DNA of 64,000 bases from Thermoflexus hugenholtzii JAD2 (lineage in GTDB: Bacteria > Chloroflexota > Anaerolineae > Thermoflexales > Thermoflexaceae): positions 149,630 through 213,629 of the forward strand of contig NZ_FYEK01000027.1 in assembly GCF_900187885.1 (NCBI RefSeq), read 5' to 3'. Of this stretch, positions 4,240-52,132 are shown in pieces. The stretch's first letter is position 1, and each line of letters begins with the position of its first letter. A program made the translations under genes and the position numbers. Under the pieces are notes generated by a model. That model saw only the letters and a list, made by a program, of their open reading frames with translations. It was not told the DNA's origin and did no database searches.

Positions 4240-4251
4240 GGGGGGAGCCCG

Positions 4252-5232
4252 ATGGGGTGGAAAGGACGGGAGCCGTTTCTGTTGATCGTTAACGCGCTGC
4301 TGATCGTGATCTTGGCGGCCACCACGCCCTTTATGATGCGGCCGGACGCGGCGGGCGGCCGCGTGCTGGACCTGAGCGCGTTGCGTCTGCTACTGGACAA
4401 CTACGCAGCGACGTTCATCGGGGCGGTGGGGATGACGCTGGTCATCCTGGCCGGCCAAATCGACCTATCGGTGGGCTCCGCCCTGGCCTTGTGTGCGGTG
4501 GTCGCTGCCCAGGTCTCCCAGATGGGATGGCCGGTTCCCCTGGCTTTCCTGGCTCCGATCCTGGTGGGGACGCTCATCGGACTGATCAACGGCGCTATCG
4601 TCGCCTACGGGCGGATCCACGCCATCCTGGTGACGTTGGGGATGATGACTCTCCTGCGCGGCCTGGTGGTTCACCTGGTCCCGGCGGGCTGGGTGGCGAC
4701 CAGCGATGCCTTCAAGGGGGTGGGCCTGGCCCGGCCGCTGGGGGTTTCCACCTCAATCTGGATCGCTGCAGCCTTCGCCCTGGTGGTGGCCCTGGCCGCC
4801 CGTTACACGCGCTGGGGACGGGAGATCTATGCCGTGGGGAGCAACCCGAACGCCGCGGCCATCGTGGGGATCCGCCCCCACCGCATCTGGTTCACCGTCC
4901 TTCTTTTCAACGGATTTGCCATCGGGCTGGCCAGCGCCGTCCATGCCTCCCGCTTCGGGGTGATCCAGAACAACATCGGGCAGGGATTTGAGCTGCTGCT
5001 CATCACCGCAGTGGTCATCGGAGGGACCAGCATCTTCGGCGGCTATGGGAGCGTGGGAGGGACTCTCCTGGGGGTCCTGTTCCTGGCGCTGGTTCGTTCG
5101 GCGCTGATTTACTTCCGTATCCCTGCGCTCTGGGAACAGGCCGTTTACGGCGCCTTTCTGCTCTTCGCGGTAGGTCTGGACATCGCCCGGTCGCGGGCGT
5201 GGGCGCGGGCGTGGCGAGGGGGGACGGCATGA
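4252..5232 (+). CDS. rhaP: Rhamnose ABC importer permease 1
   Basis: 326-residue integral membrane permease of the BPD_transp_2 (RbsC-like) family with about 8-10 hydrophobic segments. The family hallmark block is present (GQIDLSVGSALAL near residue 70; VIGGTSIFGGYGSVGGTLLG near 260). It follows the ATPase by 12 bp and its stop overlaps the next start (ATGA at 5229). Forms a heterodimeric channel with the second permease. The rhaP/rhaQ assignment between the two paralogues is arbitrary. Confidence 0.9.
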   Translation: MGWKGREPFLLIVNALLIVILAATTPFMMRPDAAGGRVLDLSALRLLLDNYAATFIGAVGMTLVILAGQIDLSVGSALALCAVVAAQVSQMGWPVPLAFLAPILVGTLIGLINGAIVAYGRIHAILVTLGMMTLLRGLVVHLVPAGWVATSDAFKGVGLARPLGVSTSIWIAAAFALVVALAARYTRWGREIYAVGSNPNAAAIVGIRPHRIWFTVLLFNGFAIGLASAVHASRFGVIQNNIGQGFELLLITAVVIGGTSIFGGYGSVGGTLLGVLFLALVRSALIYFRIPALWEQAVYGAFLLFAVGLDIARSRAWARAWRGGTA

Positions 5233-6278
5233 GGGAGATCCGGCGGCCGGGAGCGATCGCCCGGGGATGGACCCGGGAAGGGATCCTGTTGGGGATCGTG
5301 GCGGGATTGCTGATCGCCATCGCCCTGCTGACGCCCAAGTTCCTGACGGCCACCAACTTGCAGATCACCTCCCGCTATCTGGTGGAGGTGGGCCTGGTGG
5401 CCATCCCGATGACGATGATCATCCTGATCCGCGGGATTGACATCTCCGTGGGCTCCATCGTCGCCCTCACCACAATCGTCCTGGGGTTCTCGTGGAGCGT
5501 GTATCGGATCCCCATGGTCGCCGCGATCGCCCTGGCCCTGACGGTGGCGACCCTTTGCGGCCTCCTGAACGGGTTGGCCATCACCCGGTTGCGGGTTCCG
5601 GATTTGGTGGTGACCCTTTCGACCCTGGCGATCTACCGGGGGATCGCCGAGGGCCTCGGGGGTGGGGGGCGGGTCTATCTGTATGAGGATCCGATCATGC
5701 GCTTTCTGGGGGAGGGGCAAATCCTGGGGATCCCGGTGGGGCTGTGGGTGTTCCTGCCAGCGGTGCTCATCGCTGGACTGGTGCTGGACCGGACCGCCTG
5801 GGGGAGGTCGCTATACGCCATCGGGCATAACGAGACGGCCGCGCGCTTCGCCGGGATAAGGGTGGACCGGATCCGCCTGCTGGTTTACACCCTTTCCGGG
5901 CTGGCCAGCGGGGTGAGTGCCCTCTTTATGGCCGGACGCCTGGGGACGGCGCGGGCGACGGCCGGCCTGGGCCTGGAGTTCGAGGTCATCACGGCGGTGG
6001 TCGTGGGGGGGACGGCGATCTCCGGCGGGGAAGGGAGCATCTGGGGCAGCTTCCTGGGCGTGGTGATGGTCACCGCCTTGCGAAACGGCCTCAACCTGAT
6101 CGGGGTGCCCTCCCCGATTCAGGCCATGATCATCGGCGCGTTGCTGATCCTGACGGTGCTGGTGAACGAGAATCTGCGCGTGCGCATCCGGGGATGGGTG
6201 CGCCCGGCAACGCCGGTGCCCGCGCATGAGGCGGAGCCGGCGCCCGCGGCGAACCCGTCTCCCCATGAAAGGAGGTGA
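5229..6278 (+). CDS. rhaQ: Rhamnose ABC importer permease 2
   Basis: 349-residue membrane permease, second RbsC-like subunit. Conserved RGIDISVGSIVALT and GGTAISGGEGSIWGSFLG blocks match those of the upstream permease. ATG 5229 overlaps the preceding TGA, indicating translational coupling; a further upstream GTG would overlap the neighbour by more than 30 bp and is not favoured. The C-terminal tail is hydrophilic, Pro/Ala-rich. Together with the paired permease, the ATPase and the lipoprotein it completes one importer. Confidence 0.9.
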   Translation: MREIRRPGAIARGWTREGILLGIVAGLLIAIALLTPKFLTATNLQITSRYLVEVGLVAIPMTMIILIRGIDISVGSIVALTTIVLGFSWSVYRIPMVAAIALALTVATLCGLLNGLAITRLRVPDLVVTLSTLAIYRGIAEGLGGGGRVYLYEDPIMRFLGEGQILGIPVGLWVFLPAVLIAGLVLDRTAWGRSLYAIGHNETAARFAGIRVDRIRLLVYTLSGLASGVSALFMAGRLGTARATAGLGLEFEVITAVVVGGTAISGGEGSIWGSFLGVVMVTALRNGLNLIGVPSPIQAMIIGALLILTVLVNENLRVRIRGWVRPATPVPAHEAEPAPAANPSPHERR

Positions 6279-6356
6279 GACCGCAGCATCCGGAAGCCCA
6301 ATTCTTTGTTGCGACGGTAGTTCAGAACCCCAAATCTCAGGAGGAGGGAGGTTGCC

Positions 6357-7421
6357 ATGAAGCGTCGTCCGTTGCCCTTGCTGATCGTCGGTCTGGTCAT
6401 GGCCCTGATCCTGGCCCAGTGCGCGCCGGCGCCGACGCCGGCGGCCCAGCCGCCCGCTGCGGCGCCTTCCCCCACCGCCGCTCCTTCTCCTACAGCGGCT
6501 CCTGCGAAGAAGTTCGTCATCTACCATGTGCCGAAGGCGGTGGGCATCGACTACTTCAAGTCGGCCCATCAGGGCATGGAGGAGGCGGCGAAGGAGTTCG
6601 GCGACGTGGAGCTCCACTATGAGGGCTCCATCAACGCCAGCGCCGAGGAGCAGATCAAGGTGCTGGAGGACATCATCACCAAGAAGCCCGATGCCCTCAT
6701 CGTCTCCGCCAACGACCCCCAGGCCCTGGTGCCGGTGCTCAAGCGGGCCCGCGAGGCCGGCATCACGGTGGTCACGTACGACGCCGATGTGCTGCCCGAG
6801 GCCCGCATCTTCTTCATCAACCAGGCCACCTTTGAGGGCATCGGCAAGGCCCTGATCGATGAAGCAGCCAATCAGGTGGGGCCGGAGGCCAAGATCGCCA
6901 TCATCTCCACCTTCCCCACGGCCCCCAACCAGAGCCGCTGGGTGGAGGAGATGCAAAAGTATATGTCCCAGGCCTACCCCAAGATGCAGCTGGTGGACAT
7001 CCGCTACGGGGAGGACGATCAGGCCAAGAGCCGTCAGCAGGCCACGGACCTCATCGCCGCCCACCCCGAGGTGCAGTTCCTGATCGTCCCGACCTCGGTG
7101 GGCTGCCCCGGCGTGGCTGACGCCCTGGAGGCGGCCGGCAAGGTGGGCCAGATCAAGATGACCTGTCTGGCCACCCCCAACGGGATGCGGGCCTACGTCA
7201 AGCGGGGCACCCTGGAGGCCTTCTACCTGTGGAACGTGGTGGACCTGGGTTATCTGGCGATGTATGTGACCCACGGGCTGCTGACCGGCGAGATCAAGCC
7301 CACGGATAAGACGGTGAAGGCCGGCCGGCTGGGCGAGCGTGAGGTTGGCCCGGACAACGTGATCCTGCTCGGCCCGCCCTTCCGGTTCGACAAGAACAAC
7401 ATCGATCAATTCAACTTCTAA
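6357..7421 (+). CDS. rhaS: Rhamnose ABC importer substrate-binding lipoprotein
   Basis: 354-residue extracytoplasmic sugar-binding protein, periplasmic-binding-protein type 1 fold (Peripla_BP_4). The signal peptide ends in a lipobox (ILAQC, Cys about 22), followed by a Pro/Ala/Ser/Thr linker to about residue 50. The binding domain then starts ([17 protein letters not shown]). The [15 protein letters not shown] segment is typical of sugar binders of this class. A strong AGGAGGGAGG ribosome site precedes ATG 6357. A long GC hairpin follows the stop, which could stabilise this part of the transcript, as is common for binding proteins needed in excess. Confidence 0.92.
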
Positions 7422-7433
7422 ATGCGCGGGTAT

Positions 7434-7460
7434 GGGGGAGGGCCTCTTCGGCCCTCCCCC
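7434..7460 (+). terminator. 11-bp GC hairpin between the binding protein and isomerase genes
   Basis: GGGGGAGGGCC (7434-7444) and GGCCCTCCCCC (7450-7460) form a perfect 11-bp stem with a 5-nt loop (TCTTC). No T-tract follows, so it is more likely a partial attenuator or 3'-end stabiliser inside the operon than a full intrinsic terminator. Confidence 0.6.
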
Positions 7461-7503
7461 GGCTCGACAGGGCTTTCCGTTCGCTCAGACGAGGGGGGAA
7501 GCC

Positions 7504-8742
7504 ATGGCGGGGGTGCCTGGCTATGAGGCCCTGGCGGAAACCTTGGCCCGCCGGGGCGTGGATGTAGAGGCGGTGAAGGCTGCCCTGAAGCGGCAGCGGA
7601 TCGAGACGCCCTCCTGGGGTTATGGCAACTCCGGCACTCGTTTTAAGGTGTTTCCATGGCCGGGGGCAGCCCGGAACATCTACGAGAAGCTGGCGGACGC
7701 GGCGGTGGTGCATCGATTCACCGGCGTGTGTCCCACGGTGGCCATCCACATCCCGTGGGATAAAGTGGAAGATTGGGAAGGCCTGCGGCAATACGCCGCC
7801 AGCCTGGGGCTTCAGATCGGGGCGGTGAACCCCAACCTGTTCCAGGACGACGATTACCGGCTGGGCAGCGTCTGCCATCCGGATCCCCGGGTGCGGCGTC
7901 GGGCGGTGGAGCACATGCTGGAGTGCATCGAGATCGCCGAAAAGGTCGGCTCCTCCATCCTGAGCCTCTGGTTCGCCGACGGCACCAACTACCCCGGTCA
8001 GGACGACTTCCGGGCGCGCAAACATCGCATGCTGGAGGCTCTCTCGGAGGTCTACCGCCGGATGCCGCCGGGGATGCGAATGCTGATCGAATATAAGTTC
8101 TTCGAGCCGGCCTTCTATCACACCGATCTGGCGGACTGGGGGATGGCCTATGTCATCGCAACCCACCTCGGGCCCCAGGCCCAGGTCCTGGTGGACACCG
8201 GTCACCATCCCCAGGGGACCAACATCGAGCACATCGTGGCCTTCTTGTTAGATGAGGGCCGGTTGGGGGGCTTTCATTTCAACAATCGGAAATACGCCGA
8301 CGACGACCTGATCGTCGGGTCCATCAACCCCTTCGAACTCTTCCTGATCTTCAATGAGCTGGTCGCAGCGGAGCAGGACCCGCGGACGGCGGAGACGGCC
8401 CGGGCGGTGGCTTACATGATCGATCAGTCCCACAACATCGAGCCGAAGATCGAAGCGATGATCCAGTCGGTGGTGAACATCCAGACGGCCTACGCGAAGG
8501 CGCTTCTGGTGGATCGACAGCGGCTGCGGGAGGCGCAGGAGGCGGGCGACGTCCTGGAGGCCCACCGGGTTCTCCTGGAAGCCTACGAGACCGACGTGCG
8601 TCCGCTGCTGGCCCAGGTCCGTCTGGAGATGGGACTGGATCCAGATCCGGTGGCCGCTTTCCGACGGAGCGGATACGCAGAGAAGGTGGCCCGGGAACGG
8701 GGGATCGCCGTTGCGGCCAGCGGCTACCCCGGCGCATCTTAA
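7504..8742 (+). CDS. rhaI: L-rhamnose isomerase (Pseudomonas-type RhaI)
   Basis: 412-residue cytoplasmic TIM-barrel isomerase converting L-rhamnose to L-rhamnulose. Recognisable blocks are [20 protein letters not shown] (about residues 38-57), HIPWDK, a metal-ligand Glu in [28 protein letters not shown] and [13 protein letters not shown], which match the P. stutzeri-type sugar isomerase rather than E. coli RhaA. ATG 7504 is preceded by GAGGGGGGAAG; an upstream in-frame start at 7432 would run through the hairpin and is rejected. First intracellular step of the pathway encoded here. Confidence 0.93.
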
Positions 8743-8809
8743 CCTTGGAATTCAGGGCCGCTCCCTGAGCTCTCGGTTTCATCCGGATTTGCCTCAGGAG
8801 GGATGGAGG

Positions 8810-10870
8810 ATGCCGCGCAACCTCTGGAAGGAAGAGGAAGCGGCGGGCTTGAGCGAGCTGGAGCTTCTGGTCTACCGCTCCCGCCTGCTGGGGGCCGATC
8901 GAAGCGTGTGCAACATCTTCGGGGGCAACACATCGGCCAAGACGATAGAGCTGGACTTCCGGGGCCGCCCCGTTCGCACGCTGTGGGTGAAGGGCTCCGG
9001 GTCGGATCTGGCAACGATCACGCTGAAGGGCTTCGCGGCGCTGCGGTTGGACGACGTGTTGCCCCTCATGGAGCGGGAGAGCCTCTCCGATGAGGAGATG
9101 GTGGAGTATCTTTCCCACTGTTATCTGAAGCCAGGGATGCCTCGCCCCTCCATTGAGACGCTGCTGCACGCCTTTATCCCCGCCCCCCACGTGGATCACA
9201 CCCACCCGGACGCTATCGTGAGTCTGGCCACGTCGGAGAACGGACCGGAGCATGTGCGGCGTCTCTTCGGCGACCGCGCGGTCTGGGTTCCCTATGTGCG
9301 GCCGGGGTTCACCCTGAGCAAATGGATCGCCGAGGCGGTGCGGGCCAACCCGCAGGCGGAGTGCGTGGTGATGGCCAAGCACGGCCTGGTGACCTGGGGG
9401 GAGGATGCCCGTTCCTGCTACGAGAACACCATCCGGATCATCCAGGAGGCGGAGGATTACATCGCCGAGCAGGCGATGGGCCGTCGGATCTTCGGCGGGG
9501 TGCGCGTCCCCGCGTTGCCGGAGGATCGGCGCCGGGAGATCGCAGCGAAGCTGCTGCCGATCCTGCGGGGCGCGGTAAGCCGGGAGCGCCGACATATCCT
9601 GCGCTACGACGACAGCCCGGAGGTTCTGGATTTCGTGGGCAGCGAGGGAGCCCGGGAGGTCGCTCGAGTGGGTTCCGCATGCCCGGATCATCTGGTGCAC
9701 ACCAAGCATTGGCCGTTGTTTGTGGAGTGGGATGGCTCTGACGTGGAGGGGCTAAAGGCCTCCCTGGTCCGGGAAGTTGAGCGCTATCGGGAAGAGTATG
9801 TCCGTTACTTTGAAGCGCACCGGGGCCCCCAGGACACGATGATGGATCCCTCCCCGCGCATCATTCTCATCCCAGGCCTCGGGCTGATCGCCACCGGGAA
9901 GGACGCGTTTATGGCCGGTGTGGCCCGGGATCTCTATCACCGGGCCATCGCGGTGATGCGTGGAGCCACCGCCCTGGATCGTTTTGTCTCCCTCACGCCG
10001 GCGGAAGCCTTCGCGGTGGAATACTGGCCGCTGGAGCTGTACAAGCTGACCCTCCGTCCTCCTGAGCGAGAGCTGGCGGGCCGGGTGGCGGTGATCACCG
10101 GAGGGGCTTCCGGCATTGGCCGTGCGACGGCGTATCGCCTGGCCCAGGAAGGGGCCCACGTGGTGATCCTGGACATCAACCGGGAGGGCGCGGAAGCGGT
10201 GGCCGCCGACCTCGTCTCCCGCTATGGGGAGGGACGGGGGATGGCCGTGCCCTGTGATGTCACCGATGAGGCTCAGGTCGCCGAAGCCTTCCGCCGCACG
10301 GTTCTGGCATATGGAGGGGTGGATATTGTGATCAACAACGCGGGCATCGCCCACTCAGCCCCGGTTACGGAGACCTCGACGGCGGATTGGGATCGCCTGT
10401 ATCACGTGCTGGTGCGCGGCTATTTCCTTGTGGCCCGCGAGGCGTTCCGGATCTGGAAGGCGCAGGGGATCGGGGGGAGCATGGTCATCGTCGCTTCGAA
10501 AAACGCTTTGGTCGCCGGGAAGAACACCGCCGCCTATAGCTCCGCCAAGGCCGCAGAGGTGCATCTGGCCCGCTGTCTGGCCGAGGAGGGAGGCGAGATC
10601 GGGGTTCGTGTGAACGTGGTCTGTCCCGATGCCGTGATCCGGGGTTCCAGCATATGGGACACGCGCTGGCGGGAGGAGCGGGCGCGCACGTATGGGATCG
10701 CCCCGGAGCAGCTGGAGGAATATTACCGCCAGCGCACGACCCTCAAGGTCAACGTGTATCCGGAGGACGTGGCCGAGGCCATCCTCTTCTTCGCCTCCGA
10801 TCGCTCGGCGAAGACCACCGGCGGGATCCTGACGGTGGATGGAGGGGTTCCCGCTGCCTACGTTCGCTGA
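8810..10870 (+). CDS. rhaD: Bifunctional rhamnulose-1-phosphate aldolase / short-chain dehydrogenase
   Basis: 686-residue fusion. The N-terminal class II aldolase domain (about residues 20-260) has the zinc-ligand stretch HVDHTHPDA and FGGNTSAK. The C-terminal SDR domain (about 420-686) has the Rossmann TGGASGIG, NNAG and the YSSAK catalytic pair. Known relatives cleave L-rhamnulose-1-phosphate to DHAP and L-lactaldehyde; the SDR half is thought to act on lactaldehyde. ATG 8810 has an AGGAGGG site upstream, whereas the upstream in-frame start at 8711 overlaps rhaI. The fusion may channel the reactive aldehyde (inference). Confidence 0.92.
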   Translation: MPRNLWKEEEAAGLSELELLVYRSRLLGADRSVCNIFGGNTSAKTIELDFRGRPVRTLWVKGSGSDLATITLKGFAALRLDDVLPLMERESLSDEEMVEYLSHCYLKPGMPRPSIETLLHAFIPAPHVDHTHPDAIVSLATSENGPEHVRRLFGDRAVWVPYVRPGFTLSKWIAEAVRANPQAECVVMAKHGLVTWGEDARSCYENTIRIIQEAEDYIAEQAMGRRIFGGVRVPALPEDRRREIAAKLLPILRGAVSRERRHILRYDDSPEVLDFVGSEGAREVARVGSACPDHLVHTKHWPLFVEWDGSDVEGLKASLVREVERYREEYVRYFEAHRGPQDTMMDPSPRIILIPGLGLIATGKDAFMAGVARDLYHRAIAVMRGATALDRFVSLTPAEAFAVEYWPLELYKLTLRPPERELAGRVAVITGGASGIGRATAYRLAQEGAHVVILDINREGAEAVAADLVSRYGEGRGMAVPCDVTDEAQVAEAFRRTVLAYGGVDIVINNAGIAHSAPVTETSTADWDRLYHVLVRGYFLVAREAFRIWKAQGIGGSMVIVASKNALVAGKNTAAYSSAKAAEVHLARCLAEEGGEIGVRVNVVCPDAVIRGSSIWDTRWREERARTYGIAPEQLEEYYRQRTTLKVNVYPEDVAEAILFFASDRSAKTTGGILTVDGGVPAAYVR

Positions 10871-10948
10871 GGGGGACATCTTCCAAACCAGAGATGGCCG
10901 GCGCTCAGGTTGCTCAGACCGACGGCACAGGGCACGGAGGGTTGGCGC

Positions 10949-12433
10949 ATGCTTCGTCTGGCGGCCATCGACCTGGGGGCGGAGAGCGGACGGGTGTTCC
11001 TGGGGACGTTCGATGGGGAACGCCTGTCCGTCGAGGAGATCCATCGTTTCCCGAACGTCCCGGTTCGGGTTCAGGGCACCCTCTATTGGGACATCCTTCG
11101 CCTCTTCGAAGGAGTCCGGGAAGGTTTGCTCCGGGCCGCCCGGGTTTCCGGAGGGCGCATCGCTTCGGTGGGGGTCGACACCTGGGGGGTGGATTTCGCC
11201 CTGCTGGACCGCCAGGGCCGGCTGATCGGGAACCCGGTGCATTATCGGGATCGCCGCACCGAGGGGATGATGGAGCGGGTTTTCCAGCGCATCCCCCGCG
11301 AGGAGATCTACCGCCGCACCGGGATCCAGTTCATGCCGATCAACACCCTCTATCAGTTGTTCGCCATGGTGGCGCGGGAGGATCCCTGGCTGGAGATCGC
11401 CCACACCTTCCTGACGATCCCTGACCTTTTCCATTACTGGCTGAGCGGGGTGAAGGCCTGCGAGTTCACCAACGCCACGACCACGCAATGTTACGATCCC
11501 TTGGCTGGGGATTGGGCGCGGGATTTGCTGGGACGTCTGGGGATCCCCACCCACCTTTTCCCCGAGATCGTGCCCCCGGGGACCATCCTGGGGCCGCTCC
11601 AGCCGGAGCTGGCGCAGGAGCTGGGTCTTCCCGAGACTCAGGTGGTCGCGCCGGCCAGCCACGACACTGGCTCCGCGGTGGCCGCTGTCCCCTTCCAGCA
11701 TCCCGATGCGGCTTATATCAGCTCGGGGACGTGGTCCTTGGTCGGCGTGGAGGTCAGGGCCCCGGTGATCCGGGAGGAGGCCCTGGCGGACAACTTCACC
11801 AACGAAGGGGGCGTGGGAGGGACCTTCCGGCTGCTGAAGAACGTGATGGGGCTGTGGCTGCTTCAGGAGTGCCGGCGCACATGGACCGCCCAGGGACAGC
11901 AATGGGATTATGAGGCTCTGGTTCGTCTGGCGGAAGCGGCCCCTCCGCTCCGATCGCTCATCGATCCGGATGATCCGCGATTCCTGCCTCCAGGAGAGAT
12001 GCCCGCACGGATTCAGGCGTTCTGCCAGGAGACCGGCCAGCCCATCCCAGAGGAACCCGCGGAGATCGTCCGCTGTATCCTGGAGAGCCTCGCCCTGAAG
12101 TATCGATGGGTGATCGAGCGCCTAGAGGCCCTGCTCGCACGTCCCATCCCGCTGATCCACGTAGTCGGCGGCGGATCCCGCAATGCCCTCCTCTGTCAGT
12201 GGACGGCGGATGCCGCCGGACGCCCGGTGCTGGCCGGGCCTGCCGAAGCCACGGCGCTGGGCAACCTCATCGTGCAGGCGATGGCCCTGGGCCATCTCTC
12301 CAACCTCGAGGAGGCTCGCGCGGTGATCCGGCGCTCCTTCGCTCCGCTTCTCTATGAGCCCCGCGCTTCCTCCACCTGGGAGGAGGCTTACCAGCGCTTT
12401 GTCACCCAGATCCTTCCCGCTGGAAGGAAATGA
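10949..12433 (+). CDS. rhaB: L-rhamnulokinase
   Basis: 494-residue FGGY-family carbohydrate kinase (ASKHA fold) phosphorylating L-rhamnulose at C1 with ATP. The N-terminal phosphate loop AIDLGAESGRV (residues 5-15), VGVDTWGVDFAL, the ISSGTWSLVGVE segment and the VVGGGSRNALLCQWTADA C-terminal signature are diagnostic. ATG 10949 follows CACGGAGGG at good spacing. It comes after the aldolase fusion by about 80 bp on the same strand and completes the isomerase-kinase-aldolase set. Confidence 0.93.
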   Translation: MLRLAAIDLGAESGRVFLGTFDGERLSVEEIHRFPNVPVRVQGTLYWDILRLFEGVREGLLRAARVSGGRIASVGVDTWGVDFALLDRQGRLIGNPVHYRDRRTEGMMERVFQRIPREEIYRRTGIQFMPINTLYQLFAMVAREDPWLEIAHTFLTIPDLFHYWLSGVKACEFTNATTTQCYDPLAGDWARDLLGRLGIPTHLFPEIVPPGTILGPLQPELAQELGLPETQVVAPASHDTGSAVAAVPFQHPDAAYISSGTWSLVGVEVRAPVIREEALADNFTNEGGVGGTFRLLKNVMGLWLLQECRRTWTAQGQQWDYEALVRLAEAAPPLRSLIDPDDPRFLPPGEMPARIQAFCQETGQPIPEEPAEIVRCILESLALKYRWVIERLEALLARPIPLIHVVGGGSRNALLCQWTADAAGRPVLAGPAEATALGNLIVQAMALGHLSNLEEARAVIRRSFAPLLYEPRASSTWEEAYQRFVTQILPAGRK

Positions 12434-12579
12434 GGATAGAGACGACCCAGCAGGTCGCCCCTGCCGGATCGAACGGCGATCGCCGCTTCCCGGTGCGCCC
12501 GATGGAGGCATGTCGCCTGAGGTAAACTGGGGAAGCGGCGGTGATCCACCAGCCTGATCCGCCCAGAGGAGGAGAGACG

Positions 12580-13986
12580 ATGAGCGTCCCCAGCCCGGCC
12601 TTTCGCGCGCGCATCCGCCAGGGGCTCTCCGATACCGTCCTCCAGGAGGCGCTGCAGCGGGCCACCCGATCCTTCCAGATCAGCCGTGAGCAGGCGTTCG
12701 CGGACCTCCCGGACGCCGAGGCGGTCCGCGACCGCGCCCGCGCCATCCGCGCCCACACCATCGCCCACCTGGACCGCTACCTGGAGCAGTTCGCCCGGGC
12801 GGTGGAGCGACACGGCGGGAAGGTCTTCTGGGCCGCCACGGCGCAGGAGGCGTGCGATTACGTCTTGGGTCTAGCTCGGGCCCGGGGCATCTCCTTGGTC
12901 GCCAAGAGCAAGTCCATGGTCAGCGAGGAGATCGGCCTCAACGCCGCCCTGGAGGCCGCCGGGATCCGGGTGGTGGAAACAGACTTGGGGGAGTTCATCA
13001 TCCAGCTGGCCGGGGAACGCCCCTCCCACATCATCACCCCGGCCATCCACAAGCGGCGGGAGGACGTCTCGCAGCTCTTCCAGAAGCATCTGGGGATGCC
13101 CCCTACCGACGAGATCCCCGCCATGACCGCCGCGGCCCGCCAGGCCCTGCGCCAGATTTTCCTGGACGCCCGCATGGGGATCAGCGGGGTCAACTTCGGG
13201 ATCGCTGAGACGGGGACCCTGGTGCTGGTGACCAACGAGGGCAACGGCCGGATGGTGACCACCCTGCCGCCCATCCACGTGGCCCTGATGGGCATCGAGC
13301 GGGTGGTGCCCACGTGGGAGGACGCCGAGATCCTGTTGCGGGTGCTGGCCCGCAGCGCCACCGGACAGGCCCTCACCGCCTACACGTCGTTCCTCACCGG
13401 CCCCCGTCGACCCAAGGAGCCCGATGGACCCGAGGAGCTGCACGTGGTGCTGGTGGACAACGGCCGCTCCCGCTGGCTGGGCACCCCGTTGGAGGAAGCG
13501 CTGTACTGCATCCGTTGCGGGGCCTGCCTGAACGCCTGCCCGGTCTACCAGGCCATCGGGGGCCACGCGTACGGCAGCGTGTATCCCGGGCCCATTGGAT
13601 CCATTGTCACGCCCATGCTGGGGGACGGAGCCGGCGCGGAGCTCGCTTACGCCAGCAGCCTGTGCGGGGCCTGTCAGGAGATCTGCCCAGTGCGCATCGC
13701 CATCCCCGATCTCCTGATCCGTTGGCGGCAGATGGAGGCCGGCCGCCTCCTGCCGGCCTGGGAGCGGGCCGCCCTCTGGGCTTACGCTCGAATCGCCCGC
13801 CACCCCGCGGCCTGGACGCGGCTCGGCCGCTGGGCGATGGCGCTCCTGCGTCGCCTGGGGCGAGGGGGATGGCTGCGATGGGGCCCCGGGCCCCTGCGGG
13901 CCTGGACGGCGGTCCGGGATCTCCCCGTCCCGCAACGTCCGGCTTTCCGGGAGTGGTGGGCCTCCCGGGGAGGAGGTGTCCCATGA
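12580..13986 (+). CDS. lutB: LutB-type iron-sulfur lactate oxidation subunit
   Basis: 468-residue cytoplasmic subunit of the L-lactate dehydrogenase (lactate to pyruvate) complex. The LUD domain (about residues 60-295) contains VAKSKSMVSEEIGLN and GISGVNFGIAETGT. Two ferredoxin-like 4Fe-4S motifs follow, CIRCGACLNACP (about 310-321) and CGACQEICP (about 365-373). A basic amphipathic tail comes after. ATG 12580 follows GAGGAGGAGAG. Its stop overlaps the lutC start. Placed 146 bp after rhaB, it can consume the L-lactate derived from rhamnose lactaldehyde. Confidence 0.92.
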   Translation: MSVPSPAFRARIRQGLSDTVLQEALQRATRSFQISREQAFADLPDAEAVRDRARAIRAHTIAHLDRYLEQFARAVERHGGKVFWAATAQEACDYVLGLARARGISLVAKSKSMVSEEIGLNAALEAAGIRVVETDLGEFIIQLAGERPSHIITPAIHKRREDVSQLFQKHLGMPPTDEIPAMTAAARQALRQIFLDARMGISGVNFGIAETGTLVLVTNEGNGRMVTTLPPIHVALMGIERVVPTWEDAEILLRVLARSATGQALTAYTSFLTGPRRPKEPDGPEELHVVLVDNGRSRWLGTPLEEALYCIRCGACLNACPVYQAIGGHAYGSVYPGPIGSIVTPMLGDGAGAELAYASSLCGACQEICPVRIAIPDLLIRWRQMEAGRLLPAWERAALWAYARIARHPAAWTRLGRWAMALLRRLGRGGWLRWGPGPLRAWTAVRDLPVPQRPAFREWWASRGGGVP

Positions 13987-14675
13987 CCCATCCGGTGCTG
14001 GAACGCGTTCGTCGGCAGGTCACCCGGCGGCCGATGCCCTCCGGGCCGGTCCCGCGGTGGCCCCTGGACGCGCCGCGGGGGAGCGCGGCCGCCCTCGAGC
14101 GGCTTCAGGCGGCATGGACAGCGGTGGGCGTGGCCTTCGTCCACTGCCCCACCGAGGCCGCGGCCTTCCGGGAGATCGTCGCCCGGCTGCAGGAGCGGAA
14201 GGTCCGGCACGTGCTGATGGATGCGCGCACCCACCGCGCGTATCCCGGCCTGCGGGAGGCTCTGGAGGACGCCGGGCTGACGGTGATGAGCGGCGGCCTT
14301 CCCCGGGAGGAGGGGCCGCGCTACCTGGGGCTGGGGCGCTGGGCGACGGCCGAGGCCGGCATTACCGAGGTGGTGGCTGCCTTCGCGGACACCGGGACGC
14401 TGTGGGTGGCCGGGGGCGCGGGGAGGATGCGCTGCGCCTCGCTGTTGCCGCCGCTGCACATCGCCTTGGTCCGGCGGGCCCAGGTCTTTCCGTGTCTGGC
14501 CGCCTGGCTGGCGGAGGCCCGGGCCTCCGGGGCGCTGATGGAATGGGTGGAGGAAAGCAGCGCGCTGATCGCCATCACGGGGCCCAGCCGGACCTCGGAC
14601 ATTGAGAAGACGCTGACGCTGGGGGTGCATGGGCCGCGGGAGGTGATCGCCTTTCTGATCGAGGAGGCCGTATGA
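13983..14675 (+). CDS. lutC: LutC-type LUD-domain lactate oxidation subunit
   Basis: 230-residue LUD-domain protein. The C-terminal block (ADTGTLWVAGGAGRMRCASLLPPLHIALV, then ITGPSRTSDIEKTLTLGVHGP) is the LutC signature. ATG 13983 overlaps the lutB TGA (ATGA), and its own stop overlaps the lutA start, so the three genes are translationally coupled. Residues 1-40 are Pro/Arg-rich and poorly conserved. It works with LutA and LutB in oxidation of L-lactate to pyruvate. Confidence 0.9.
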   Translation: MTHPVLERVRRQVTRRPMPSGPVPRWPLDAPRGSAAALERLQAAWTAVGVAFVHCPTEAAAFREIVARLQERKVRHVLMDARTHRAYPGLREALEDAGLTVMSGGLPREEGPRYLGLGRWATAEAGITEVVAAFADTGTLWVAGGAGRMRCASLLPPLHIALVRRAQVFPCLAAWLAEARASGALMEWVEESSALIAITGPSRTSDIEKTLTLGVHGPREVIAFLIEEAV

Positions 14676-15394
14676 GCCCGACGGTCCAGCTCTTCGTCAC
14701 ATGCCTGGTGGACTGGCTGCGGCCGGAGATCGGGATCGCGACCGTGCAGTTGCTGGAAAGGATCGGCGTCGCGGTGCGCTTCCCGGAGGCCCAGACCTGT
14801 TGCGGACAGCCCGCCTTCAACGTGGGGCGCTGGGGGGAGGCCCGGGCCATGGCCGAACACTGGGTGCGGACCTTCGACCCCGAGCTCCCGGTGGTGGCCC
14901 CCTCCGGCTCGTGCGTGGCGATGATCCGCCACGGCTACCGGGCGCTCCTGGAGGGACATCCCCTTTACAGGCGCTGGGAGGCCCTGGCGGCCCGCACCTA
15001 TGAGCTCAGCCAGTATCTGGTGGACGGGTTGGGGATCGAGGACCTGGGGATCCGGCGCGCGGGAACGGTGACTTATCATCCTTCGTGCCATCTCCTGCGG
15101 ATGCTGGGGGTGCGGGAGGCACCGGAGCGGCTGATCCGGGCCACGGGGGCGGAATATCGCCTGCTCCCGGAGGCGACCGCCTGCTGCGGCTTCGGGGGGC
15201 TCTTCTCCCTGCACTTCGAGGAGGTCTCCGGCGCGATGCTCGCCCGCAAGATCCAGGCCATCCGCTCCACCGGCGCGGAGGTGGTCCTGGGGTGCGACTG
15301 GAGCTGCCTGATGCACATCGGCGGCGGGCTGCACCGCCAGGGCCTGCCGGTCCGCGCTCTGCACCTCGCCGAGTGGCTGGCGGGGGGGGAATGA
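14672..15394 (+). CDS. lutA: LutA-type CCG-domain lactate oxidation subunit
   Basis: 240-residue protein with two cysteine-rich CCG domains: CLVDWLRPE with CCGQPAFN in the first half, HPSCHLLRMLG with CCGFGG in the second. This arrangement binds iron-sulfur or heterodisulfide-reductase-type clusters. ATG 14672 overlaps the lutC stop. The order B-C-A differs from the Bacillus order A-B-C. Third subunit of the lactate-oxidising complex. Confidence 0.92.
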   Translation: MSPTVQLFVTCLVDWLRPEIGIATVQLLERIGVAVRFPEAQTCCGQPAFNVGRWGEARAMAEHWVRTFDPELPVVAPSGSCVAMIRHGYRALLEGHPLYRRWEALAARTYELSQYLVDGLGIEDLGIRRAGTVTYHPSCHLLRMLGVREAPERLIRATGAEYRLLPEATACCGFGGLFSLHFEEVSGAMLARKIQAIRSTGAEVVLGCDWSCLMHIGGGLHRQGLPVRALHLAEWLAGGE

Positions 15395-15398
15395 CCCG

Positions 15399-15899
15399 AT
15401 GGACCTGCACGCCCTGCGGGAACGCCTGATCGCTTTCTTCGCTGACCAGCCGGACGTGGCGGCGGCGTATCTGTTCGGATCCGTGGCCCGCGGGAAGGCC
15501 ACGCCGCGCTCGGATCTGGACGTGGCGGTCTTGCTGGCGCCCGCGCCCTCGTCCCCCCAGGAAGAATGGGAGCGCCGGGAGGCCCTGTCGAAGGCCCTCA
15601 GCCGGATCGTGGGCCGCCCGGTGGATGTGGTGATCCTGAACCGGGCTCCTCCGCTGCTCTGCCATCAGGTGCTGCGGGAAGGCCAGCGGATCTACGAGCG
15701 GGATCCGGAGACCCGGATCGAGTTCGAGGTGCGTGTGGGAAAGATCTACGCGGATCTCCGGCCGATGTGGGACTTCTTCGATCGGATCCTGGAACAGGAG
15801 CTGGAGGAGGGTCGCCTTGGGGAGCTCCGACGACATGATTCGGGAAAGGCTTCGCTGGCTGCGAAGCGAGGTCGCCTATCTAAAAAGCGAAAGGGATAA
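15399..15899 (+). CDS. MntA-type minimal nucleotidyltransferase (antitoxin-like)
   Basis: 166-residue nucleotidyltransferase with GSVARGKATPRSDLDVAVLL (about residues 27-46), i.e. the GSxxxG and DxD metal-binding motif. Such MNT proteins are antitoxins that AMPylate a HEPN (HepT) toxin. It starts 5 bp after lutA. The C-terminal 20 residues are Lys/Arg/Ser-rich and run through the start of a HepT remnant in another frame; the family normally ends nearer residue 140, so the tail is probably read-on past an original stop. The partner toxin looks truncated. Confidence 0.75.
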   Translation: MDLHALRERLIAFFADQPDVAAAYLFGSVARGKATPRSDLDVAVLLAPAPSSPQEEWERREALSKALSRIVGRPVDVVILNRAPPLLCHQVLREGQRIYERDPETRIEFEVRVGKIYADLRPMWDFFDRILEQELEEGRLGELRRHDSGKASLAAKRGRLSKKRKG

Positions 15900-44713: not shown

Positions 44714-45841
44714 ATGAAGCGTCGAGCGATTCTCATCGGCGTGCTGATGGCGCTCACCGCAGCTTGCACCACGCCTGCGGTGACGCCGATGCCCTCGCCG
44801 GTCCCGGCGTCGCCGGCTCCCACGCCCTCCCCGAGCCCGGCGACGCCCACGGCCACGCCGGCGGGCCCGCGGGAGCTGGTGCTGATGACCCACGACAGCT
44901 TCGCCGTCAGCGAGGAGGTGCTGCGGGAGTTCGAGCAGCGCTACCACGCGCGGGTCCAGATCCTCAAGGCGGGCGATGCAGGGGCCGCCCTCAACAAGGC
45001 CATCCTGGCCAAGGGGGCACCCCTGGCCGACGTGTTCTTCGGGGTCGACAACACCTTCTTCAGCCGGGCCATCCGGGAGGACCTCTTCGAACCCTACCGG
45101 CCGAAGGGCCTGGAGGAGATCCCCGCGGAGTTCATCCTGGACCCCGAGCTCCGGCTGATCCCCATCGATTACGGCGACGTCTGCGTGAACTATGACAAGA
45201 AATACTTTCGGGAGAAGGGGCTGAAGCCGCCGGAGACCCTGGAGGACCTCGCGCGGCCGGAGTATCGGGGCTTGCTGGTGGTGGAGAACCCGGCCACCTC
45301 CTCCCCGGGCCTGGCGTTCATGCTGGCCACGATCGCCCACTTCGGGGAGGAGCGCTGGTTGGATTTCTGGCGGGCCCTGAAGGCCAACGACGTGAAGATC
45401 ACCGAGGGCTGGGAGGACGCGTATTACAAAGAGTTCAGCGGGGCCACGGGGAGCCCGGGGACGCGCCCGCTGGTGGTGAGCTACGCCACCAGCCCGGCGG
45501 CGGAGGTGTATTTCAGCCAGGGCCAGCTCTCCGAGCCTCCCACCGGGAACGTCCTGGGGAAGGACGCCTGCTTCCGCCAGATCGAGTTCGCCGGCATCCT
45601 GAAAGGGGCGCGGAACCGGGACCTGGCGGAGCGCTGGATGGATTACATGATCAGCCTGCGCTTCCAGGAGGACATCCCCCTCCAGATGTTCGTCTTCCCG
45701 GTCCACCCGAAGGCGAAGCTCCCGGACTTCTTCCAGAAGTTCGCGGAGGTCCCGAAGGAGCCCGCCCGCCTGGATCCCGCCCGGATCGATGCCAACCGGG
45801 AGCGGTGGATCCAGGAGTGGACGGATTTGATGCTGCGGTGA
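44714..45841 (+). CDS. thiB: Thiamine-type ABC transporter substrate-binding lipoprotein
   Basis: 375-residue exported binding protein of the ThiB/TbpA type (family 1 extracellular binding proteins). The signal peptide ends in a lipobox (LTAAC, Cys 18), then a Pro/Ser/Thr linker to about residue 52, then ELVLMTHDSFAVSEEVLREFE, a characteristic thiamine-binding-protein opening. The VFFGVDNTFFSRA and IPIDYGDVCVNYDKKYF segments follow. ATG 44714 is used. It lies downstream of thiN and upstream of a permease, separated from it by a Uma2 gene. Thiamine specificity is inferred from family and context. Confidence 0.87.
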   Translation: MKRRAILIGVLMALTAACTTPAVTPMPSPVPASPAPTPSPSPATPTATPAGPRELVLMTHDSFAVSEEVLREFEQRYHARVQILKAGDAGAALNKAILAKGAPLADVFFGVDNTFFSRAIREDLFEPYRPKGLEEIPAEFILDPELRLIPIDYGDVCVNYDKKYFREKGLKPPETLEDLARPEYRGLLVVENPATSSPGLAFMLATIAHFGEERWLDFWRALKANDVKITEGWEDAYYKEFSGATGSPGTRPLVVSYATSPAAEVYFSQGQLSEPPTGNVLGKDACFRQIEFAGILKGARNRDLAERWMDYMISLRFQEDIPLQMFVFPVHPKAKLPDFFQKFAEVPKEPARLDPARIDANRERWIQEWTDLMLR

Positions 45842-45906
45842 GGGTCAAGCAAAATGAGGGGAGTGCGGTTCCGGCTCGCCCGAACCGGGGTGCGGGAGGT
45901 CCGGCG

Positions 45907-46551
45907 ATGCGGGTTCGGTTGATGACGGAAAGCGGTGAGGAGATCATGGGCGCTTTTCTGCTCCGTCTGGGAGGATGGACCGAGGCCCGTTACTTTGAAG
46001 AGGCGCCGGAGGATCATCTCTGGGAGTTCGAGGACGGGGAGGTGATCGTGCACTCGCCGGCCACCCTCTCCCACCAGCGCCTGGTGGGATTTCTCTCCTT
46101 CCTGCTGCGGGGCTACGTTGAGGCCCATGGGCTGGGAGAGGTCTTCAACGCACCAGCGGTTCTTCGCCTGCGGCCGGGGGCGGTCAAAGAGCCGGACCTC
46201 TTTTTCGTGCATCGGGATCGTCTCCCGGGGAGCCGCTCTGACTGGGTGGAGGGCCCGGCGGACCTGGTGGTGGAGGTCGTCTCCCCTTCCACTCGGCGCT
46301 ATGACCTCGAAGAGAAAGCCCGGATATACGAAGAGGGCGGGGTTCGGGAATACTGGGTGGTGGATCCAGAGCGCCAGGTGGTGACGATTCACCGGCTCGG
46401 TCACCCCGGCTACCGGGTGGGGGAGATCTCCCGGGGGCGGATCCCATCTACAGCGGTCCCCGGGTTCTGGATCGAAGCGGAATGGCTGTGGCGGGATCCG
46501 CTCCCCGCTGCCCTGGAATGTCTCCGGCAGATCCTGGAGGCGTCCGGGTAA
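45907..46551 (+). CDS. Uma2-family (DUF820) PD-(D/E)XK nuclease-like protein
   Basis: 214 residues with the Uma2 core: the DGEVIVHSPATLSHQRLVGFL N-terminal block, then AVKEPDLFFVHRDRL, VVEVVSPSTRRYDLEEKARIYEEGGVREYWVVDPE. This contains the PD and ExxS-x-K restriction-like residues. The longer in-frame start at 45805 overlaps the thiB end; ATG 45907 is preferred. Uma2 genes are abundant, often multicopy, in Chloroflexota and cyanobacteria, with unknown function. Its place between transporter genes suggests a recent insertion. Confidence 0.8.
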   Translation: MRVRLMTESGEEIMGAFLLRLGGWTEARYFEEAPEDHLWEFEDGEVIVHSPATLSHQRLVGFLSFLLRGYVEAHGLGEVFNAPAVLRLRPGAVKEPDLFFVHRDRLPGSRSDWVEGPADLVVEVVSPSTRRYDLEEKARIYEEGGVREYWVVDPERQVVTIHRLGHPGYRVGEISRGRIPSTAVPGFWIEAEWLWRDPLPAALECLRQILEASG

Positions 46552-50186: not shown

Positions 50187-50402
50187 TCAGTGTTTATGGG
50201 AGAAAGCCAGAAAGCGCACAAGGACAAATGCGATGGTGAAACTGAGGGTACCGGCCAGCACCGGGAGGATCGCCTCCATCCATGTCCTTTGCTCAAAGCC
50301 CAACCACAGGGCTAGACCTGTGATCAGGAAGGCCGACGCCCCAACCACAGTGGGGAGCAGGATCTGGATCCAGAGATCGGCTTTTCGCTGCCCAGCGCCC
50401 AT
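50187..50402 (-). CDS. Small two-helix membrane protein, candidate immunity or export partner
   Basis: 71 residues, basic N-terminus (MGAGQRKADLW) and two hydrophobic helices (about residues 12-33 and 43-66) joined by a short loop, ending LAFSHKH. No family recognised. It starts 24 bp after the stop of the cysteine-rich precursor gene on the same strand, and base composition in both is less GC-rich than in the neighbourhood. Small membrane proteins directly following secreted-peptide genes often provide self-protection or export; that role is inference. Confidence 0.55.
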   Translation of the reverse strand: MGAGQRKADLWIQILLPTVVGASAFLITGLALWLGFEQRTWMEAILPVLAGTLSFTIAFVLVRFLAFSHKH

Positions 50403-50426
50403 GACTTCCTCCTTTCGAGCAAAGAT

Positions 50427-50897
50427 CTAGTAGAAACGTCCGCAACCGAAGTGGCATCCTCCTCCACACAGGCCGCCACACATCCCTCCGCAAATCAGGG
50501 TGCAGACCACGTTGGGTCCACAAATAATTACGCATGCTAATGCACATCTCACACCGCATAAACCACCACAAAGTGCATTACAGATCAAGCAATCCCAATC
50601 CACCTGATTGATCACGGGTGCTTCGAAGCGTTCGATTTCACCCCTTGAGCCGACCCTTAGAGCATATCGCTGCCCATTATTATGAGTATCTGCAGGTTCA
50701 ACCAAAATTCCGGCGGGAGGTTTGGGGCTTGCAGGCTCATGCTCGGCCTTCACTGACTTGGGGCTTCCTAAGATGGAGAGGGTGATCTGCGCGATGAGCG
50801 CCCCTCCGGCCCGGCGCAGGAAATCGCGCCTTCCCCAATCCCCGCCGAGCACGGGGCCGATCCGGGCCACGGCCTGGGCCACCCGCAGGGCCCGCAC
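50427..50897 (-). CDS. Twin-arginine-type precursor with C-terminal 13-cysteine CX3C-repeat peptide
   Basis: 156 residues from GTG 50897. WGRRDFLRRAGGALIAQITL (residues 21-40) is a twin-arginine-type signal: RR followed by a hydrophobic stretch. A Pro-rich and then hydrophilic segment (45-100) precedes a 54-residue tail with 13 cysteines at 103, 106, 110, 114, 118, 122, 126, 132, 136, 140, 144, 148 and 152, mostly four apart with Gly between. It resembles halocin-like Cys-rich secreted peptides only in general form. The upstream DCC gene is in the same frame, separated by one TAG, so both may once have been, or still be, one polypeptide. Confidence 0.65.
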   Translation of the reverse strand: MRALRVAQAVARIGPVLGGDWGRRDFLRRAGGALIAQITLSILGSPKSVKAEHEPASPKPPAGILVEPADTHNNGQRYALRVGSRGEIERFEAPVINQVDWDCLICNALCGGLCGVRCALACVIICGPNVVCTLICGGMCGGLCGGGCHFGCGRFY

Positions 50898-50909
50898 CGG
50901 GCCCAGGAC

Positions 50910-51146
50910 CTACCCCAGGCGCGCCCGCATCCCAAGGCCCGCCAAGACCCGCACGCGCTCCCCCTCGATCTCAACGAGCATCGGTTCCCACCGCCAGCCG
51001 GGACGGGCGCGGTCCAGCAGGGCCTGGACCGCGGGGTCTCGCAAATTCCGCACCCGTAGCCGCCCGCCGCTGAGCGTTTCCACCTCCCGCGCCAGGGCAG
51101 CGCATATGGAACACCCCGCATCGTAAAGCAGCCACCGCGTCCCCAT
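50910..51146 (-). CDS. DCC-family thiol-disulfide oxidoreductase-like protein, short
   Basis: 78 residues: WLLYDAGCSICAALAREVETLSGGRLRV is the DCC (DUF393) opening with CSIC as the redox-active pair, then RDPAVQALLDRARPGWRWEP and RVLAGLGMRARLG, where TAG (50912-50910) ends the frame. Typical DCC proteins are 110-140 residues. The codons after the TAG continue in the same frame as LGPVRALRVAQAVARIGP, which looks like natural DCC C-terminal sequence, so the stop probably splits a longer gene. A ribosome site AAGGGAGG precedes ATG 51146. It may form or reshuffle disulfides for the adjacent peptide. Confidence 0.7.
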   Translation of the reverse strand: MGTRWLLYDAGCSICAALAREVETLSGGRLRVRNLRDPAVQALLDRARPGWRWEPMLVEIEGERVRVLAGLGMRARLG

Positions 51147-51200
51147 CGCCGACCTCCCTTGCCTGGGTTTCCGCTTCTCAGCGCAGCCCGCTCCCCGCTT

Positions 51201-51251: not shown

Positions 51252-51956
51252 TTACCCAAAGCCCATCAGGGCCTCGATTAGCTGCCAGAAGTCCGGCAAG
51301 GGATCCTCTTCCAGCAGCGCCGCGCAACGGGGGTCCAGGAGGCCGCCCTGGGCCCGCCAGCGGGTCAGGTCCACCCGATCCACCCGCCCCAGCCGGGCCA
51401 GGGCCCGCGTTAGATGAGTGCGGGCGGTCTCCGGCGCGATGCCGAGCACGCGGGCGATCTCTTTGTTGCTCAGGCCGTGGGCCGCCGCCCAGGCCACCGC
51501 CCGCTGCTGCGGGCTGAGGCTGAGGGCCGCCCACGGATCGCCCCATCTCGCCCGCCAGCGCTGGGCTCGCCGCACCGCCCCCGGGGTCCACAGCGACATC
51601 CCGGCCAGGGCCTCTCGGACAGCGCCGGTGAGCCTTTCGCACGGTTGCCCCCGCCCCAGGCAGCCCCGGGCACCGGCCTTCCAGGCCAGGGCCTCGAGGG
51701 CGGGATGGGGAGTTTCCACCAGCAGTAGCCCAGATATTTCCGGTTGCGCCCGGATGGCAGCGGCCAGCAGCGCCGCGCCGCTGCCGTCGGGGAGCTCGAA
51801 GGCCACGAGCAGGGCGGAAGGGGGATGGCGCGCCCAGGCGGCCCGGGCCTCGGCGGCGGTGGCCACCTCCCAGGCGATGGGGAAGCCCAGGGCGCTCAGG
51901 CGCTCGGCCCAGGCGGCCCGGCGCATCGAATCCCCATCCACCAGCCCCACTGCCAT
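51252..51956 (-). CDS. LuxR-type regulator with degenerate receiver domain
   Basis: 234 residues. The N-terminal receiver-like domain (1-118) starts VGLVDGDSMRR, but at the phosphoacceptor position it reads LLVAFELPDGSG, with Ala where Asp is expected, so it is a pseudo-receiver. A LuxR/GerE helix-turn-helix follows (about 145-205; LSPQQRAVAWAAAHGLSNKEIARVLGIAPETARTHL). ATG 51956 follows AAAGGTG. Located in the middle of the minus-strand cluster, it is the obvious candidate regulator of the Cys-rich peptide genes. No cognate kinase is nearby. Confidence 0.75.
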   Translation of the reverse strand: MAVGLVDGDSMRRAAWAERLSALGFPIAWEVATAAEARAAWARHPPSALLVAFELPDGSGAALLAAAIRAQPEISGLLLVETPHPALEALAWKAGARGCLGRGQPCERLTGAVREALAGMSLWTPGAVRRAQRWRARWGDPWAALSLSPQQRAVAWAAAHGLSNKEIARVLGIAPETARTHLTRALARLGRVDRVDLTRWRAQGGLLDPRCAALLEEDPLPDFWQLIEALMGFG

Positions 51957-52132
51957 CGCCACCTTTCAGAGGAGGATGCCCGATTACATTGTAGGAGGCC
52001 AACCGAGTTGAGGGCAAGGCATGTCGGCCTGCAGAGGACTCCCTATAGGGCCATCGTCTCCGAGCGATCAGGGGGGCAGGGATCTTCGGCCCCCTGCTCC
52101 GCCTGCACGGGAGGTTCCCCGCCATTTGGGGC

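Follow-up and report, generated by a model that had tools for sequence, protein, structure and literature searches.

What does the open reading frame at positions 50427-50897 (minus strand) encode in the window, the 64,000-nucleotide stretch of DNA analysed here, and does its run of cysteines place the product in a known class of peptide? The frame (156 aa, GTG start) comprises an RR signal, a linker and a Cys-ladder payload (50430-50591, minus strand), in which 13 cysteines (residues 103, 106, 110, 114, 118, 122, 126, 132, 136, 140, 144, 148 and 152) include two six-cysteine blocks at i+4, which CGPNVVC connects. Upon re-reading, the 13 cysteines that the original prediction had placed in the last 54 residues, and its gap series of 3,4,4,4,4,4,6,4,4,4,4,4, matched exactly; the spacing that it had called strict is four residues in 10 of the 12 gaps, but the other two differ, and the orthologue in a second genome, G006, swaps one cysteine. 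When the 13 cysteines were shuffled within the 54-aa tail, 10 gaps of 4 occurred in 0 of 200,000 shuffles (maximum 8). The cysteine codons are mixed (7 TGC, 6 TGT) and the spacers also vary, so the ladder is not a 12-nt microsatellite. The tail is Gly-rich and hydrophobic (GRAVY 1.39), and the GC3 of the payload is 0.47, compared with 0.83-0.87 in the leader and neighbouring genes, which is consistent with a separate origin of the payload.

Among nine genomes of the genus, the ladder payload was seen in only two, that of the window and G006, the latter carrying the sole ladder orthologue found. The ladder is not strictly conserved between them: G006 has lost one ladder cysteine and gained another at the next i+4 position past the last, keeping a total of 13.

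The frame had been taken as a whole unit, which did not stand, as it makes up just the 3′ half of a gene whose DCC1-like part lies upstream and is in one frame with it in relatives. This DCC1-like CxxC domain, the N-terminal half of the leader module (50910-51146, minus strand), was recognized from the alignment, the frame of the relatives and a sub-threshold match to PF04134 (E = 0.014, 17.1 bits, cut-off 27.8); the DCC1-like domains of the relatives score E = 0.003-0.02 with the same model. Its ATG at 51146 has a well-placed Shine-Dalgarno sequence, AAGGGAGG (51153-51160, minus strand), which is kept in G006 and in another genome, G004. The frame stops at a TAG (50910-50912), where relatives have CAG, 12 nt ahead of the GTG that starts the ladder frame. 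In relatives, the DCC1-like CxxC domain, the RR segment, an often present, variable middle part and the payload form one polypeptide, and therefore a nonsense codon splits the leader-payload gene in the window. Positions 50781-51140 (G000:C27:200410-200769) match the leader profile with E = 6.3e-60 with this one TAG inside, and the window gene is thus not a single uninterrupted leader-payload frame. With the DCC1-like half cut off by the TAG, translation of the payload part would have to restart at the GTG at 50897, which is plausible; the allele in the window may be poorly expressed or in decay. Alignments further place a junction at 50681-50682 (minus strand), where the window lacks ~240 nt of middle part that G006 has between RR segment and tail, an in-frame difference of 80 codons. 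The DCC1-like part of G006 has its own stop, elsewhere than the TAG of the window, and truncation affects many DCC1-like halves, both ladder genes being cases in point.

The RR-type signal and Pro linker of the original prediction were both read again in the sequence: a twin-arginine motif, RRDFLRR (50811-50831, minus strand), precedes a hydrophobic stretch, a linker that contains Pro is also present, and TatC is encoded in the genome (E = 3.4e-57). Motif, hydrophobic stretch and Tat machinery, the marks of a Tat substrate, are therefore all present. The TIGR01409 TAT model did not report the window protein, and was reached by one relative (16.9 bits versus 16.7). A possible signal peptidase site lies between VKA and E, after residue 51 (~50745); cutting there alone would leave ~105 aa, compared with the 5-6 kDa product that had been expected.

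The gene neighbourhood provides further clues. A 71-aa protein with two predicted transmembrane (TM) segments, a candidate immunity protein, is encoded 25 nt downstream of the payload (50187-50402, minus strand; Shine-Dalgarno at ~50407-50415), and is kept beside the ladder in G006. A small multi-TM protein downstream is a trait of the Chloroflexota-type DCC1-Tat leader precursors: an ORF of 71-129 aa with at least two TM segments, starting at most 150 nt downstream, follows 12 of 15 precursors and 1 of 92 control ORF ends, a comparison in which several of the 15 precursors share a genus, and so are not independent, and all 92 long control ORFs are from the window. Upstream lies a LuxR-type (GerE) response-regulator-like gene, a candidate regulator (51252-51962, minus strand; PF00196, E = 4.2e-11), and DNA related to it was found elsewhere in the genus. 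A gene for a Uma2-type putative nuclease also occurs near the locus (45805-46548, plus strand; PF05685, E = 4e-35).

From the architecture, the gene order and the relatives, we infer a toxin and immunity function, and consider it rather probable that the ladder frame contributes the payload end to a modular, Cys-rich, bacteriocin-like precursor exported by Tat. The leader would combine a cytoplasmic DCC1-like CxxC domain with a twin-arginine signal, the payload would be exchangeable, and the small membrane protein encoded next to it would most likely provide immunity to the producer. The precursor would be exported by Tat, as the motif and TatC suggest, and presumably cleaved after VKA. Once outside, the cysteine tail would oxidize to a compact, hydrophobic, disulfide-held peptide, probably a helix-turn-helix, which would attack the membranes of competitors. 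The exported peptide thus probably inhibits competing microbes, and the small membrane protein may protect the producer. Four things had escaped the original prediction: the DCC1-like half, which ends in an in-frame stop codon; the membrane protein next door; the LuxR-type gene; and the relation to fulvocin C-related precursors that is described below.

The leader has up to 10-11 matches per genome among the nine genomes of the genus, with very different C-termini. These comprise the ladder, hydrophobic Cys-rich tails, 10-Cys tails and 22- to 26-Cys tails, as well as a matrixin-like protease (PF00413, E = 7.9e-9) and a ~250-aa domain; since the last two also ride on the leader, it is not exclusive to bacteriocins. 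Across the phylum, the leader profile matched 11 of 400 genomes. Nine genomes of this sample that carry the leader lie outside the genus, one with a truncated locus, and at all eight complete-leader loci a Cys-rich hydrophobic tail comes next (at six of them in frame; G698 and G507 have it in a different frame). In the other tails, cysteines lie 3, 8 and 11 residues apart more often, and 2, 5, 6, 9 and 10 apart less often, than expected, which is a helical pattern. The leader also occurs in Thermomicrobium roseum and in Streptomyces.

The latter two were found by searching plasmids with the leader from genome G528, which retrieved Streptomyces proteins annotated as 'bacteriocin fulvocin C-related' and a T. 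roseum hypothetical protein. Fulvocin C comes from Myxococcus fulvus (Tsai & Hirsch 1981, as cited in PMC8708641). The C-termini of the Streptomyces proteins with this leader pass the fulvocin C-related model NF033852 (E = 1e-27 to 1e-30), and the two leader profiles align over 121 columns with E = 1e-33, the G528 sequence in the second having been found with the first. Like the window type, the Streptomyces members have a leader of DCC1-like and RR parts and carry a Cys-rich payload at the C-terminus. The payloads themselves differ: the window tail has 13 cysteines at i+4 and a GRAVY of 1.39, whereas the Streptomyces fulvocin-type tail that was measured has 8 cysteines and a GRAVY of −0.36. 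Neither the window protein nor its tail matched NF033852 (35-bit cut-off), and a clear downstream TM protein is absent at the three Streptomyces genes examined. The ladder is thus a new payload on a leader common to the fulvocin C-related bacteriocin type.

The T. roseum locus (TRD_RS12315, WP_012642562) is organized in the same order as the window, with a response regulator upstream, a DCC1-RR-Cys-rich precursor of 18 cysteines and then a 104-aa protein with two TM segments. Unlike in the window, its precursor is one uninterrupted gene that includes the middle part, and its tail (16 cysteines in 68 aa) has irregular gaps without a long i+4 run, whereas the window tail is laddered.

Halocin C8 (TIGR04449) likewise is a hydrophobic, C-terminal Cys-rich peptide, and its precursor is also twin-arginine. 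The window tail scored 9.2 bits with TIGR04449 (cut-off 24, E = 2.3) and a relative in genome G023 15.2 bits, and none of the 400 phylum genomes gave a match at E = 0.01; a halocin C8-like identity was thus rejected, in agreement with the original prediction that the resemblance was only loose. Production and immunity are encoded by one gene in halocin C8 (Sun et al. 2005, as cited in PMC12893001), while the candidate immunity protein of the window is a separate gene. Plant α-hairpinins, described in PMC11591084 as helix-loop-helix antimicrobial peptides with cysteines in a set motif, offer an analogy, for which no sequence relation is claimed, and contain only four cysteines compared with 13 in the window tail.

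Wider searches with the window protein gave no match in Pfam, NCBIfam or PDB sequences, and no relative in IMG/VR. As the halocin C8-like, Cxxx-target (see below), Pfam and PDB tests all failed, the protein is filed under none of these families. A profile of the tail gave no other credible match over the 400 phylum genomes, that in genome G455 looking like chance. When the class, the GTDB genomes and viral contigs were scanned with DNA patterns for the Cys ladder, most of the matches listed were short tandem repeats or lay out of frame; the few real Cys proteins among the genome matches listed (for example L107, L142, L194 and L224) resemble repeat proteins, lack hydrophobic spacers and were set aside. 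In an AF2 model from the two ladder sequences, residues 101-126 and 130-151 are helical on either side of GPN, with pLDDT of ~59-75 in an overall poor model (mean 48), and a Foldseek search with this low-confidence model gave nothing meaningful (all E > 4). AF2 on a halocin-like paralogue also yielded a poor model. On an ideal α-helix, six cysteines at i+4 turn through 200 degrees, so that a simple one-faced ladder is inexact.

The original prediction of a secreted disulfide-, metal- or thioether-bearing peptide included two chemistries that lead to other readings of the ladder. One is a periplasmic thiolate metal binder, by analogy with Csp1, the Tat-exported copper storage protein. Csp1 is itself Cys-rich, with 13 cysteines. 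Many cysteines at i+4 behind a Tat-type signal suit such a role, and the Csp proteins, which are thiolate-lined four-helix bundles, offer a parallel. We nonetheless regard this as unlikely, given the failure of the Pfam, NCBIfam and PDB sequence searches, a 54-aa Gly-rich and hydrophobic tail with two low-confidence predicted helices, the place of the ladder in a cassette that swaps payloads and includes a TM partner, and no metal gene among the neighbours tested. The other is a radical-SAM-modified Cxxx-repeat peptide of the TIGR04114/TIGR04115 type, bearing thioether bonds. The prediction had known of no described family with a CX3C ladder, a view that the Cxxx-repeat radical SAM targets of NCBIfam TIGR04114 contradict, although the window tail does not belong to them. 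The cysteine spacing, every fourth residue, is identical, and the G006 tail scored 9.7 bits with TIGR04114; however, the cut-off is 20, the window tail was not reported, and no match in the genus exceeded the cut-off. The TIGR04115 maturase had no match in the window genome and none over the cut-off in the genus, and no radical SAM domain was found among the neighbours tested. Since TIGR04114 is not passed and TIGR04115 is missing from the genome, the thioether option is disfavoured, and we consider this reading highly improbable; a secreted, disulfide-bearing peptide does fit.

A weightier objection is that the window copy might be a decaying cassette, a relic of array collapse without a working peptide. 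The TAG in the DCC1-like half and the absent middle part would be expected from decay, as would the different TAG and lost DCC1 start of G006, its missing ladder cysteine, and the truncated leaders elsewhere in the genus. The dN/dS ratios (~0.6 in the tail and ~1.1 in the TM gene, against ~0.09 in a DUF1786 neighbour) point the same way, yet with such small counts they fit antagonistic evolution or relaxed constraint, and a comparison of just two ladder sequences does not separate selection on the ladder from relaxed constraint. Against decay, the RR segment, the tail and the TM frame are open in both species although the last 84 precursor codons differ by 19 substitutions, the length difference in the middle part is in frame, the Shine-Dalgarno sites are retained, and both tails have 13 cysteines, with the one gained in G006 at the next i+4 position. 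We therefore hold decay to be a real but doubtful explanation, and continue with the bacteriocin-like precursor as the preferred reading.

How such a precursor could obtain its payload is suggested by comparison with G004. The flanks of the window are ~88-96% similar to G004, which carries ~12 kb of cassettes at the site of the single cassette in the window. This array of DCC1-RR cassettes (L053, G004:C1:599001-619000, at ~3500-15800) lies between DUF1786 and LuxR-type genes. The start of the window leader is identical to the array-head leader of G004 at 77 of 80 bases; near the RR motif, it is closer to the leader of the G006 ladder (39/40 versus 30/40), and further on, it corresponds to the ladder cassette only. 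Read from these identities, the window leader is a mosaic and the window allele joins an array-head leader to the ladder payload, and recombination between repeated leaders would be the simplest reading. The leader repeats would then serve as homology tracts, at which recombination swaps the payloads of arrays between strains, a process to which the array and single cassette at one site and the mosaic leader both point.

More tentatively, and with somewhat less than even confidence, we propose that the DCC1-Tat leader provides a general platform, subject to recombination, for secreting antagonistic peptides, and that the CX3C ladder represents a new class of payload on it, a disulfide-laddered helical hairpin that resembles no characterised bacteriocin. 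Homologous recombination at the leaders would shuffle such payloads, with matched membrane immunity proteins. If so, a domain annotated only as 'DCC1-like' could be used to search Chloroflexota and Actinomycetota for a platform of secreted Cys-rich peptides, and would connect fulvocin C-type bacteriocins with numerous unannotated precursors and with putative immunity proteins. The ladder would offer a compact model for studying how many disulfides fold within a single short peptide, and the arrays would exemplify bacterial payload swapping on a common leader.

Several other leader-associated genes were observed. Matrixin-like metalloproteases are fused to the leader module or its remnants at L055 (5876-6724, minus strand), which passes PF00413, and L050 (15329-16174, minus strand). 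Leader genes with the ~250-aa domain ('FLLLPxGAPLP...LCQT') occur at L042 (1-1212 and just downstream), L053 (10768-11481, minus strand) and L063 (5276-5809); they adjoin Cys-rich proteins with an HxHM/HVHL-type motif, for which a likeness to the M23-type peptidase fold is a candidate. One leader payload (L062, 580-1839, minus strand) has 21 cysteines in 45 residues, mostly in CGC/CCC runs, and an isolated DCC1-like leader remnant, WP_013798027, is present on plasmid pAS9A-1 of Hoyosella subflava (L378, 1429-1737).
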